This document shows, in pieces, positions 1-2,594 of a stretch of DNA of 48,540 bases. A program made the position numbers and the translations under genes. Numbering within the stretch: the first letter of the stretch is position 1; every line of letters begins with the position of its first letter. The notes below the pieces were generated by a model. That model did no database searches. It had not been told where the DNA came from and worked only from the letters and a program-made list of their open reading frames with translations. Source of the DNA: Gammaproteobacteria bacterium (lineage in GTDB: Bacteria; Pseudomonadota; Gammaproteobacteria; Pseudomonadales; Pseudomonadaceae); assembly GCA_018816095.1 (NCBI GenBank), contig JAHIWP010000052.1, forward strand, positions 1-48,540. The letters run 5' to 3'.

Positions 1-72
1 TGCGCCTGTAATGTGGAAAATGGCTGCCGCGAGGTGCTCGCGGCGGCTAAAAACACAGAAATAAGCGGGTGA
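1..72 (+). CDS. Possible 3' end of an unrecognised CDS
   Basis: From the first base the plus strand reads open for 23 codons and stops with TGA at 70-72 (end residues ...AAAKNTEISG). It would converge on the recA copy at 325-1368. I do not recognise the product, and a run this short can be open by chance. A perfect hairpin (GCCGCGAG-gtg-CTCGCGGC, about 27-45) lies inside it. If real, it belongs to the putative island. Sequence left of the window is needed to decide. Confidence 0.2.
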   Translation, partial: CACNVENGCREVLAAAKNTEISG

Positions 73-324
73 TCTGAGCGTTTTTGATCGATTTGCCGCT
101 TTTAAAATCGGCAGGGGCTGAAGTCAGCCAGAAATACACAGCTACTTCAGACCATCCCTAGCAGCCATGCTAGTTACAGAGCAGTACTTTCGCGAAACAG
201 AGACCTTCCAGAACATCCCTAAGCCCAAAAGAAAACCTGGCTTTAGCAGCCAGGGCTTCTAAGACGGACTGATGTTACCGGAATCTGCAATAGTTTTAGC
301 CAAGTTTCGCGGGACTACGAACTA
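73..324. other. Non-coding stretch downstream of the acquired recA
   Basis: I see no gene here. The stretch is rich in small inverted repeats: TGCCG...CGGCA near 95-115, CTGAAGT...ACTTCAG near 117-151, CTAGCA-gcca-TGCTAG near 158-173, and the recA terminator at 227-255. The octamer CATCCCTA occurs twice, near 152 and 214. In Pseudomonas the gene after recA is normally recX, and no recX-like reading is visible. This may be island DNA. Confidence 0.5.
227..255 (-). terminator. Rho-independent terminator of the acquired recA
   Basis: On the minus strand a 7-bp perfect stem (CCTGGCT / AGCCAGG, 5-nt loop) is followed by TTTTCTTTT. It lies about 70 nt after the stop of the full-length recA, so that gene ends its own transcript here. 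Confidence 0.75.
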
Positions 325-1368
325 TCAAATTTCGACTTCAGGCTCTTTTTCAGGCGCCAGGGCACCGGATTCAGCTTGCTTCTTTGGCATCATCTTCTCG
401 CGGATCATTCCTTCAATCTTGTCCATGGAGGCTTTGTTTTCCAACAGCCACTTCATGGTATTGGCCTTACCTTGGCCGATCTTATTGCCTTCAAAGGCAT
501 ACCAAGCACCTGATTTATCGATAAAATTATTTGCGACCGCCAGGTCTACAATTTCACCTGCCTTACTAATACCTTGACCGTAAATAATCTGGAACTCTGC
601 TTGTTTAAAAGGTGCTGCAACTTTGTTCTTTACAACTTTTACACGCGTCTCACTGCCTGTAACTTCGTCACCTTCCTTCACTGCACCGGTGCGACGGATA
701 TCCAGACGTACCGAGGCATAGAATTTCAGGGCGTTACCGCCAGTTGTAGTTTCAGGACTCCCAAACATAACACCTATCTTCATACGAATCTGGTTAATGA
801 AGATACACATAGTGTTCGAGTTTTTAAGGTTACCCGTAATCTTACGCATTGCCTGGCTCATCATGCGCGCGGCCAACCCGACGTGCATATCCCCAATTTC
901 ACCTTCGATTTCAGCTTTGGGTGTAAGAGCTGCCACTGAGTCGACAACAATAAGATTAATAGCGCCTGATCTAGTAAGGATATCCACGATCTCGAGCGCC
1001 TGCTCTCCGGTATCTGGCTGCGAGCACAGGAGATCATCAATATTAACGCCAAGCTTTGCTGCGTAGATTGGGTCAAGTGCGTGTTCGGCATCGATAAATG
1101 CACATGTCAGCCCTTGACGTTGCGCTTCAGCAATAACTGAGAGTGTTAGAGTCGTCTTACCCGAAGACTCAGGCCCGTAGATCTCTACAATACGACCGCG
1201 CGGCAAACCGCCTACGCCTAGAGCGATGTCCAGACCAAGAGAGCCGGTGGATATGACATCGATATCCATAGTGCGATCTGAACCCAGTCGCATAATGGAA
1301 CCCTTACCAAACTGCTTCTCAATCTGTGAGAGAGCCGCCTCTAACGCTTTGCTTTTTGCCTGATCCAT
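325..1368 (-). CDS. recA: Recombinase RecA, complete, apparently acquired copy
   Basis: This 347-residue RecA catalyses strand exchange and stimulates LexA self-cleavage. Seen in the sequence: Walker A GPESSGKT at 65-72, the catalytic Glu in DAEHALDP near 95, Walker B VVDSVAAL near 140-147, loop L1 ([16 protein letters not shown]), loop L2 ([19 protein letters not shown]) and an acidic tail. Nothing essential is missing. It is not the usual Pseudomonas RecA: it has [21 protein letters not shown] and [13 protein letters not shown], as in enterobacterial RecA, where Pseudomonas has [17 protein letters not shown] and GLQARLMSQALRK. A hand count gives 25/60 G+C at 541-600 against 36/60 in the neighbouring recA remnant at 1861-1920. 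The ATG has only a weak GAGTGG ribosome site, and no LexA box was found just upstream. Transcription may come from the old recA promoter. RecA identity is certain; foreign origin is strongly inferred. Confidence 0.95.
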
Positions 1369-1493
1369 TCTTATCGACCACTCGAATTAATAATTAATCG
1401 AATCTTACTGATTTGCTTAGGGCGTGCCCCTACGAGAGGAAAGGATACCTCCTAAGTGAACCAAATCTATGCTGCAACACCGAATACTGCATA
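1369..1493. other. Non-recA segment between the two recA genes (putative island end)
   Basis: Homology to native recA stops near 1494. From there to the acquired recA start the sequence is unrelated to recA. It holds two tandem copies of TACTGCA (1485-1491 and 1492-1498, the second crossing the junction), an orphan AGGAGG on the minus strand near 1447-1452 with no usable start after it, a small dyad (TAGGG-gcacg-CCCTA), and an AT-rich block at 1384-1404 that could hold a minus-strand -10 element. I infer the terminus of an integrated element. Neither an integrase gene nor the other end is in view. Confidence 0.5.
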
Positions 1494-1991
1494 CTGCAGG
1501 CCGACGTGCATATCGCCCATCTCGCCTTCGATTTCGGCTTTCGGCACCAGTGCCGCCACGGAGTCGATAACGATCACGTCGATGGCATTGGAACGCACCA
1601 GCATGTCGGTGATTTCCAGGGCTTGCTCACCGGTATCGGGCTGCGACACCAAGAGGTCATCAACATTCACACCCAGCTTGCCGGCGTATTCGGGGTCGAG
1701 CGCGTGCTCTGCATCGACGAACGCACAGGTGGCACCGAGCTTCTGCGCTTCGGCGATAACCGACAGGGTCAGGGTGGTTTTACCGGAAGACTCAGGGCCG
1801 TAAATTTCGACGATACGGCCTTTTGGCAGACCACCAATGCCCAGCGCGATATCCAGACCCAGCGAGCCAGTGGAGATAGCCGGAATGGCCTGGCGATCGT
1901 GATCGCCCATACGCATCACTGCGCCTTTGCCGAATTGCTTTTCAATCTGGCCTAAGGCAGCCGCCAAGGCGCGCTTCTTATTCTCGTCCAT
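1467..1991 (-). pseudogene. recA: Native recA, truncated after codon 166
   Basis: Residues 1-166 match Pseudomonas RecA almost exactly (start [20 protein letters not shown], Walker [17 protein letters not shown], Walker [21 protein letters not shown]). Homology then stops in loop L1. Eight unrelated codons (YAVFGVAA) lead to TAG, giving 174 residues instead of about 345. L2, the second half of the ATPase core and the C-terminal domain are absent. The promoter, start and reading frame are intact, so a fragment could still be made. The break falls right beside a 14-bp sequence (1501-1514) that also occurs unchanged in the acquired recA (878-891). The ATG at 1991 follows a GTGAGGACTTAA ribosome-site region. 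This is not a frameshift, because the missing half is nowhere in the window. Confidence 0.93.
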
Positions 1992-2038: not shown

Positions 2039-2054
2039 CTGTATAAGTAGACAG
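2039..2054 (-). promoter_or_regulatory. LexA (SOS) box of the native recA promoter
   Basis: CTGTATAAGTAGACAG fits the gammaproteobacterial and Pseudomonas LexA operator CTG-N10-CAG. It lies 48 bp upstream of the truncated recA start and in the gap after pncC, where the recA operator is expected. As the acquired recA follows in the same direction with no clear terminator between, this box probably governs both. Confidence 0.85.
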
Positions 2055-2081: not shown

Positions 2082-2594
2082 CTACCCCGGGCTTGGATTT
2101 TCTTTCGCCAACAGGCGCAACAGCCCAGCCAGAGCGGCCTCAACCGTTTGTCGGCGAACTTCACCACGGTCACCCGAGAACTGGCGGCGCACACTGAAAA
2201 TCTGTGCGCCATCGCCCCAGGCCAACCATACAGTGCCCACAGGTTTCTGCGGCGTGCCGCCATCGGGACCGGCCACACCGCTAACGGCCACGGCAAAACG
2301 CGCCCCGCTATTGGCCTGGGCCCCGCGCACCATGGCTTCGACAACCTCCTGACTCACCGCGCCAACGGTGGTGAACAGGCGTGCAGGCACCTCGAGCTGT
2401 CGGCTCTTTTGCTGATTGGAATAGGTCACGAAACCAGCCTCAAACCAGGCCGAACTGCCAGGAACCCGAGTAATGGCCTCAGCAATGCCGCCGCCGGTGC
2501 AGGACTCGGCCGTTGTCACCTGAGCCTTAGAAGCCAGCAGTTGCTCGCCTAACTCAGTCGCCAGGCGGGTCAGGGTTTGCTCATTCACAGTCAT
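2082..2594 (-). CDS. pncC: Nicotinamide-nucleotide amidase (CinA C-terminal family)
   Basis: The protein has 170 residues. PncC hydrolyses nicotinamide mononucleotide to nicotinate mononucleotide plus ammonia in pyridine nucleotide salvage. The family signature AESCTGG is at 29-35, with Ser31 the expected nucleophile, followed by VSGVAGPDGGTPQKPVGTVW. It is the stand-alone amidase: the N-terminal MoCF domain of full CinA is absent, as usual in Pseudomonas. The ATG at 2594 was chosen because CCGGAG lies 8 nt upstream and the length fits the family. It is divergent from mutS across 78 bp and lies directly upstream of recA. Confidence 0.93.
   Translation of the reverse strand: MTVNEQTLTRLATELGEQLLASKAQVTTAESCTGGGIAEAITRVPGSSAWFEAGFVTYSNQQKSRQLEVPARLFTTVGAVSQEVVEAMVRGAQANSGARFAVAVSGVAGPDGGTPQKPVGTVWLAWGDGAQIFSVRRQFSGDRGEVRRQTVEAALAGLLRLLAKENPSPG

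Follow-up and report, generated by a model that had tools for sequence, protein, structure and literature searches.

Integrative elements that split recA and bring a replacement copy with them have been published for Vibrio under the name recA mobile element (RME; PMC4405046, PMC4334540). The V. cholerae RME can excise, re-insert into recA and rescue recA-minus Escherichia coli from UV damage (PMC4405046). Among the strand-biased circularizing integrative elements (SE; Tn6283/SE-6283 and SE-6945; PMC10214605, PMC9345347, PMC5991714), Tn6283 is inserted in bcp and carries a bcp homologue, for which its authors suggest a compensating role and draw the parallel to the RMEs (PMC5991714). Here we describe a stretch of 48,540 nucleotides, referred to as the window, which is contig C43 (JAHIWP010000052.1) of a gammaproteobacterium of the Pseudomonadaceae, whose draft genome comprises 3.53 Mb in 87 contigs and is 87% complete. 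Very probably, an integrative element of the RME type, belonging to a separate Pseudomonas lineage, reaches into it with its recA-side end and is truncated by the contig ends. A preliminary description of the locus had presented the splitting and replacing of recA as a notable strategy; in this it was anticipated by the work on Vibrio of 2014-2015.

The native Pseudomonas recA of the window is broken after codon 166, at positions 1494-1500. An open reading frame (ORF) of 174 amino acids on the minus strand (1467-1991) encodes residues 1-166 of the native protein followed by an element-encoded tail of eight residues (1467-1493, minus strand; YAVFGVAA and a stop codon). After a further 98 nt (1369-1466, minus strand) there follows, in the same direction, a complete replacement RecA of 347 amino acids (325-1368, minus strand; PF00154 at 470 bits, and PF21096), designated recA_RME. 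The two reading frames are those that the preliminary description had recognized, and its remark on the lower G+C content of the foreign copy also holds: 47.6% over the first 999 nt of recA_RME, compared with 58.8% for the native half and 60.2% for mutS. As both proteins are only 78% identical over the shared 165 residues, a duplication of recA was rejected, again in agreement with the earlier account. The other half of the native gene is found on contig C77 of the same genome, from residue 165 and base ~531 onwards, with recX adjoining. To the left of this C-half lie ~530 bases of the opposite end of the element (the int end), comprising 27 codons that are in frame with the native half and then, on the opposite strand, the first ~82 codons of an integration gene. 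The terminal repeat GCAGTA (1485-1490, minus strand), contained in the tail, has its inverse TACTGC at this int end, just left of the recA half. The seven bases CCTGCAG (1494-1500), which cover the codons Leu-Gln of the motif GLQAR, are common to both native halves; six of them represent the crossover and target (CCTGCA or CTGCAG), which corrects the extent of the element within the window to 1-1493 or 1-1494. This recA end (1-1493 on the minus strand, its boundary open by one base) is defined by the conserved start described below and runs off the contig start. recA_RME is the only intact recA found in this 87%-complete draft.

Insertions of this element at identical codons of recA were found in five further genomes of Pseudomonas/Stutzerimonas, and four recA genes on megaplasmids are split there too. 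The recA-end junction was read in ten copies, six chromosomal (the window included) and four on plasmids, and the int-end junction in nine. A RecA search of 298 genomes of the genus returned the genome's own gene at E=1.6e-225 and the next best at 6.4e-167, and no other of these 298 genomes has a RecA close to recA_RME. Six peptide patterns for a 620-aa gene of the integration module, which catch close relatives only, were run against 84,980 species genomes and gave five loci, all of them Pseudomonas or Stutzerimonas; three plasmids were found with a RecA 90-91% identical to recA_RME, and two P. putida megaplasmids were reached via the int-end gene fragment. Each of the five relatives' genomes encodes a RecA N-half, a C-half and one complete RecA 91-93% identical to that of the window. 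No other intact RecA was found in the five (S. chloritidismutans AW-1 has an extra weak match of 25.8 bits over 82 residues, which is not a half). The same arrangement, with the replacement as sole intact RecA, therefore bears out the earlier proposal of an integrated element that splits recA and supplies a full copy. Since cinA adjoins the N-half and recX the C-half in 5/5 genomes, these are the chromosomal recA loci.

On the plasmids, the element is located within the plasmid's own recA. The plasmid of YC-AE1 contains both element ends, ~20 kb in total, with an apparently frame-broken 427-aa module gene; pKF715A yielded the recA end alone. Between P. frederiksbergensis SI8 and the YC-AE1 plasmid, the element is 99% identical over ~5.9 kb at the int end and, at the recA end, 96% identical over 2 kb; the RecA_RME proteins of the two do not differ over the tree columns, and this near-identity points to recent movement between chromosome and plasmid. 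AW-1 and EF27 have 10.3 kb in common at 97.7-100%. Two plasmid copies are reduced: pNY11173-DIM (L057:20001-25113) has a ~4-kb remnant with recA_RME and an IS21-like helper gene between the plasmid recA halves, and on pTTS12 (L055:19854-24977) the element lacks recA_RME, ISPpu21 lies close to its recA end, and the plasmid recA is still split.

All ten recA ends begin with (T/G)ATGCAGTAT, straight after the Leu-Gln codon pair, and all nine int ends read TACTGCTT(C/T)C(C/T), straight before a Leu-Gln pair that is spelled CTGCAG, TTGCAG or, on pNY11173-DIM, CTTCAG. The short inverted repeats at the ends, GCAGTA/TACTGC, are imperfect beyond 6 bp. With the register shifted one base to the left (CCTGCA), both repeats are four bases away and the place is that of the TCTCCA overlap in V. 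parahaemolyticus; the register of the six bases is not fixed by the sequence alone, and the footprint counts are the same in either. Empty sites, with recA intact, are present on the sister plasmids p60503-DIM, pNY11286-DIM and pRBL16, which read GGCCTGCAGGCC where pNY11173-DIM and the plasmid of YC-AE1 are split. The six bases differ between the two ends in six of the nine copies (SI8, P. indica, 402, AW-1, EF27 and pNY11173-DIM) and are equal in the window, YC-AE1 and pTTS12 (pKF715A offers one end only). Strain 402 of P. chengduensis has CTGCAG at the recA end and TTGCAG at the int end, and CTGCAG is also the reading of an intact recA that matches the two halves of this strain at 99.2% and 99.8% identity; pNY11173-DIM, compared with its sister plasmids, has CTGCAG at the recA end as in the empty site, and CTTCAG at the int end. 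These two comparisons show that the recA end keeps the bases of the target and the int end carries foreign ones, presumably from an earlier site. Judged from the junctions, the differing end bases are the likely signature of a coupling sequence, as in the SEs.

The ends of the published RMEs are similar in layout. Insertion is at nt 494 of recA in V. cholerae S24 and at nt 491 in V. parahaemolyticus 090-96, and the shared bases here are nt 492-498; the halves of 090-96 overlap by the 6 bp TCTCCA, here by CCTGCA or CTGCAG. A full divergent recA stands at one end and a recombinase gene near the other, and 090-96 likewise leaves a truncated RecA of 174 amino acids (size calculated from its gene table). 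The inverted repeats are 9 bp long in S24, whereas those in Pseudomonas are shorter, at 6 bp. Differences also concern the host genus and, for the Pseudomonas element, the additional occurrence in plasmid-borne recA.

Phylogenetic analysis of RecA (49 rows, in which the nine Pseudomonas-lineage RME RecAs represent six different sequences) places these proteins in one clade (100/98), apart from the native Pseudomonas RecA and beside the RecA of E. coli and of a Shewanella plasmid (89/85 support). The replacement thus does not group with the species' own RecA, a grouping that the preliminary description had named as speaking against its proposal. The enterobacterial origin it had suggested is retained in part: the clade is on the E. 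coli and Shewanella plasmid side at just 77-80% identity, and a recent capture from an enterobacterium was rejected, as the nearest non-RME RecAs seen are 78-80% identical. With the RecA_RME of the other elements 90-93% identical to that of the window, the clade has the appearance of an old, separate lineage and not of a recent pick-up; in the published analysis of S24, by contrast, RecA_RME grouped with the RecAs of Vibrio. The nearest non-RME RecA in our tree is encoded by a Shewanella xiamenensis plasmid (L109:7977-9017; 80%, 99/94, on a long branch), and no split recA is annotated within the 12 kb of that plasmid examined.

Among seven RecA_RME, 20 of the 21 pairs differ, and their pairwise dN/dS is 0.015-0.064 (dS is saturated in the pairs involving the window); the RecA_RMEs compared are under strong purifying selection. 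At the target site, all ten replacement RecAs read GLAARMM, including that of a more distant genome, G1063 of family f141, discussed below. The Leu-Gln target is present in 48/49 native RecA genes (50 loci, one gene twice). By group, LQAR was found in 29/29 loci of the genus (those returned of the 298 genomes), in 15/16 loci of the class (one reads LHARL) and in 5/5 loci of family f141 (one locus being shared with the class set); the natives are the best matches returned and not a random draw. The RecA_RME of G1063 groups with the native RecAs of its own family (99/97), from which its GLAAR differs. Whether inherited or selected, the replacement RecA is without the target codons.

In the nine of ten copies that keep it, recA_RME lies downstream of the truncated ORF, co-oriented with it and at a distance of 96-98 nt. 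A LexA box (at most one mismatch) is found upstream of the native N-half in all six chromosomal copies; that of the window is CTGTCTACTTATACAG (2039-2054, minus strand), an exact match to CTGT-N8-ACAG, and is now upstream of both the truncated recA and recA_RME. No such box at up to one mismatch was found directly upstream of recA_RME in any of nine copies (pTTS12, without recA_RME, was left out); in the window, where the 125 nt from the junction to recA_RME are free of one, there is a single site with two mismatches. The chromosomal recA_RME would therefore seem to be driven by the SOS promoter of the host.

At the int end of the relatives are four genes in one direction, encoding proteins of 582, 620, 179 and 427 amino acids; the same four-gene set is found in the five chromosomal relatives (the first gene of EF27 is partial). 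The 427-aa protein matches Phage_integrase at 25.5 bits (cut-off 27.1) and XerD far below the cut-off, and has the motifs R, HNFRHR and Y. The 620-aa protein has ACR, HQFRR, GH and LYYA, by reading in the order of a tyrosine recombinase. Recombinase motifs were found in genes 2 and 4 only (gene 4 from Pfam/NCBIfam, gene 2 by reading). Profiles of the 620-aa protein found no relatives among viral contigs, a search of the class with the 582-aa profile returned the own genome alone (1/369), and profile searches of PDB gave nothing convincing. The RME of 090-96 has int-end genes of 650, 674, 243 and 435 amino acids (calculated), the modules being compared by gene size alone. In the SEs, as here, there are two tyrosine recombinases, one of them large, and two further genes, one of them small, and a 6-bp footprint at one junction. 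The order differs, being intA-tfp-intB-srap in the SEs and 582-620-179-427 in Pseudomonas, with the ordinary recombinase last, as does the side of the footprint, which is at attR, away from intA, in the SEs (PMC10214605) and at the integrase end here. We suppose that the module acts like that of an SE and do not claim it as one. GInt elements (ginABCD; PMC5385486), considered for their four-gene recombination module at one end with a small protein and their occurrence in Pseudomonas, were rejected on gene order and content: they have three recombinase-type genes and then ginD, whereas in the Pseudomonas element the motifs are in genes 2 and 4 and the small gene is third. Furthermore, the authors of the GInt study hold that insertion probably does not fully inactivate the target, and the words recA, mutS and cinA do not occur in that paper (PMC5385486). 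The preliminary description had named the mutS-cinA-recA region as an island site in some strains of the P. syringae group.

The following course of events would be consistent with these data. The recombinases would excise and insert the element via a circular form, leaving a 6-bp footprint of the previous target at the int end. Insertion would kill the native recA, with the replacement read from the host's own SOS promoter and itself unable to serve as a target. Unless the element were excised precisely, its loss would leave the host without RecA, which would make the element hard to delete. The recA of megaplasmids would offer a second landing site, on which the element could travel between hosts.

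Several observations weigh against this interpretation. The 620-aa protein has no match in Pfam or NCBIfam, and hhalign gave no links between the module proteins, connecting neither the 620-aa nor the 582-aa protein to the 427-aa recombinase; its putative assignment as a recombinase goes back to motif reading and to distant relatives of its homologue in the f141 genome G939, which are annotated as integrases in 13 of 16 plasmid records. E. coli and Shewanella plasmid RecA also have GLAAR, which in the Pseudomonas clade may be inherited rather than selected as immunity. None of three plasmid recA targets has a LexA box, so the presumed capture of the promoter is not universal, and recA_RME of V. 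cholerae S24 reportedly has a LexA box of its own (PMC4405046), whereas none was seen in Pseudomonas. Finally, no more than two pieces of the element, of ~1.5 kb and ~0.5 kb, are present in the source genome, and with the first integration gene interrupted and the 620-aa gene absent, the copy in the window may be immobile.

This last point leads to the alternative that survives best, to which we give an even chance: an RME inserted once and is now dead, and recA_RME is simply the recA of this host, kept since the native gene is broken. In the source genome, a repeat with which C77 begins, IS30-like by reading, breaks the first integration gene at codon ~82; the repeat has three 85% copies elsewhere in the genome, and a 43-aa fragment of it has no match in Pfam. 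At the other contig end, the first bases of the window (1-163) are probably associated with an insertion sequence, as positions 43-161 are 78% identical (120-column alignment) to the DNA beside ISPpu21 on pTTS12. The 620-aa gene was not found in the source draft, none of the nine integrase-family matches of the genome falls in stretches matching the 427-aa gene, and the related elements on pTTS12 and pNY11173-DIM have decayed. It should be kept in mind that such a relic competes with present mobility only and not with the origin from an RME, and that missing contigs may hold the rest.

An RME-type element that replaces recA is also to be compared with one in which the second recA is fitness cargo for extra repair. 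The V. cholerae RME raised UV survival and the tolerance of ciprofloxacin and bleomycin in recA-minus E. coli (PMC4405046); that host, however, was without recA, so the gain is one of replacement, and in every copy read here the native gene is split, with the new recA at the split point and in the same direction. We consider this explanation unlikely. Slimmer still are the prospects of a conventional phage or integrative and conjugative element that sits in recA and carries a recA by chance. The tyrosine recombinases at one end would fit, and many large plasmids carry RecA-like genes (matches at E up to 1e-5 in 1297 plasmid records), but all five chromosomal relatives have one and the same four-gene set at the integrase end, recA_RME is always in the same place, at the opposite end and co-oriented with the target, and the element of YC-AE1, the only one searched in this respect, has no annotated phage structural or conjugation gene. 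An error of assembly or binning that fused the native gene to a contig with a foreign recA, a concern raised by the fragmented draft (87 contigs, 87% complete), the position at a contig end and, in the preliminary description, the junction at 1494, is practically ruled out by the same recA-end junction in nine other copies from separate genomes and complete plasmids and by the matching other half of recA in the same genome.

Beyond Pseudomonas, the 620-aa profile matched 13 of 395 genomes around G441 (family f141), and the loci of four were read. In G1063, a RecA C-half lies beside genes for 644 and 671 amino acids (26% and 23-24% identical to their Pseudomonas counterparts), and a full RecA is encoded on the same contig, at its start and 50 kb from the C-half; a RecA N-half was not found in this genome, which has Ns at the junction. 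G939 has a module of 720, 662 and 174 amino acids (28-31% identical) beside a 293-aa C-half of LigA (L128:6500-12171). On another of its contigs (L145:9402-12632), zipA precedes an N-half of LigA (420 amino acids), and immediately behind this half a complete 654-aa LigA is encoded. Aligned with the intact LigA of G1063, the two halves cover 24-397 (79%) and 396-683 (77%); the 654-aa LigA is a divergent protein, only 25% identical to that of G1063. The permease gene by the C-half has a 72%-identical counterpart a few genes past ligA in G964, and we infer that the two contigs belong to one element, a split ligA with divergent LigA and RME-like module. At the zipA-ligA locus of G964 (L146:8919-10886), only a LigA of the element type is present, with 66% identity to the copy of G939 and 25% to the native protein; that genome yielded no native LigA. 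Four-gene modules were also noted in G714 (L131:5554-12183; 784-791-173-457 aa) and in G964 (L129:6673-12550; 597-707-192-473 aa, followed by a gene that reads as umuD-like).

By reading, the Pseudomonas RME and the ligA case appear to be SE-like elements that split and replace. Tentatively, and with slightly more doubt than confidence, we propose that the RMEs are a branch of a wider SE-like class that splits a needed gene and brings a replacement that is proof against the recombinase and driven by the host promoter (recA in Vibrio, Pseudomonas and an f141 genome, ligA in G939, perhaps bcp for Tn6283), a route that possibly ends in permanent core-gene replacement as at the zipA-ligA locus of G964. 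What is new relative to the described RMEs are the 6-bp targets that differ between ends, the replacement RecAs without Leu-Gln, the position of recA_RME behind the host's SOS promoter with no LexA box of its own, and the ligA relative. Among the matches listed from the open-licence literature there was no report of an element in recA concerning Pseudomonas carriers and no case of a split and replaced ligA, as far as the texts were available; one match on insertion into recA (PMC12458937) was set aside, as it concerns RecA-fold domains and not the recA gene.

The RME strategy is hereby extended from Vibrio to the chromosomes and megaplasmids of Pseudomonas. A mobile element can put a distant version in the place of recA, a gene of recombination and a standard marker, and recA-based trees and typing schemes can then mislead unnoticed. 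The ligA relative could change the picture beyond the known strategy of RMEs: if true, the splitting and replacing of a needed gene would be a general form of self-protection against deletion and a route for the exchange of core genes between lineages. The replaced gene, the footprint and the missing target also make for a clean test system, each being assayable in laboratory strains. In home-and-rescue gene drives, a rescue copy is part of the design. Such drives, which target an essential gene, are engineered, nuclease-driven and made for insects (PMC7968924), and are an analogy only.

At the int end, an element ORF (MNSMALQR...LLPLQ) continues in frame into the native C-half in 7/8 int ends examined, the remnant on pNY11173-DIM being without it and EF27 left out. 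Its variable sites by codon position number 11, 6 and 10, which gives no sign of selection at the protein level, and the ligA relative has only a TTG start; a function for this leader is not claimed. The tail added to the truncated RecA ends in Ala-Ala in all ten Pseudomonas-lineage copies (five different sequences), in CLVA in the ligA relative and, if the boundary is read correctly, in ILSSAD in the RME of G1063, with 3, 3 and 5 variable sites by codon position in the tail. The ssrA tag likewise ends in Ala-Ala. It is a weak idea, on mixed evidence, that the eight-residue tail may send the truncated RecA to degradation.

The cargo of the relatives varies. In S24 it comprises umuDC and a mutL-like gene, and other genes are found in the Pseudomonas relatives. 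In P. indica (L103:2633-19893), behind recA_RME and hence, to the extent covered by the contig, within the element, there is an alk-like gene set with a MalT-type regulator, a protein of the ferredoxin-reductase type, a GMC dehydrogenase, an acyl-CoA ligase and a protein of the OmpW type, the sizes and families of which presumably correspond to the alk cluster of alkane degradation. Strain 402 has lspA and, by reading, a MerR-type regulator among the ORFs behind the module.

In the remainder of the window, a gene read as cinA-like (2082-2591, minus strand, inside the longer ORF 2082-2891) and mutS are found upstream of recA, which represents the native order mutS-cinA-recA, and nine further ORFs that were scanned appear to be ordinary core genes.

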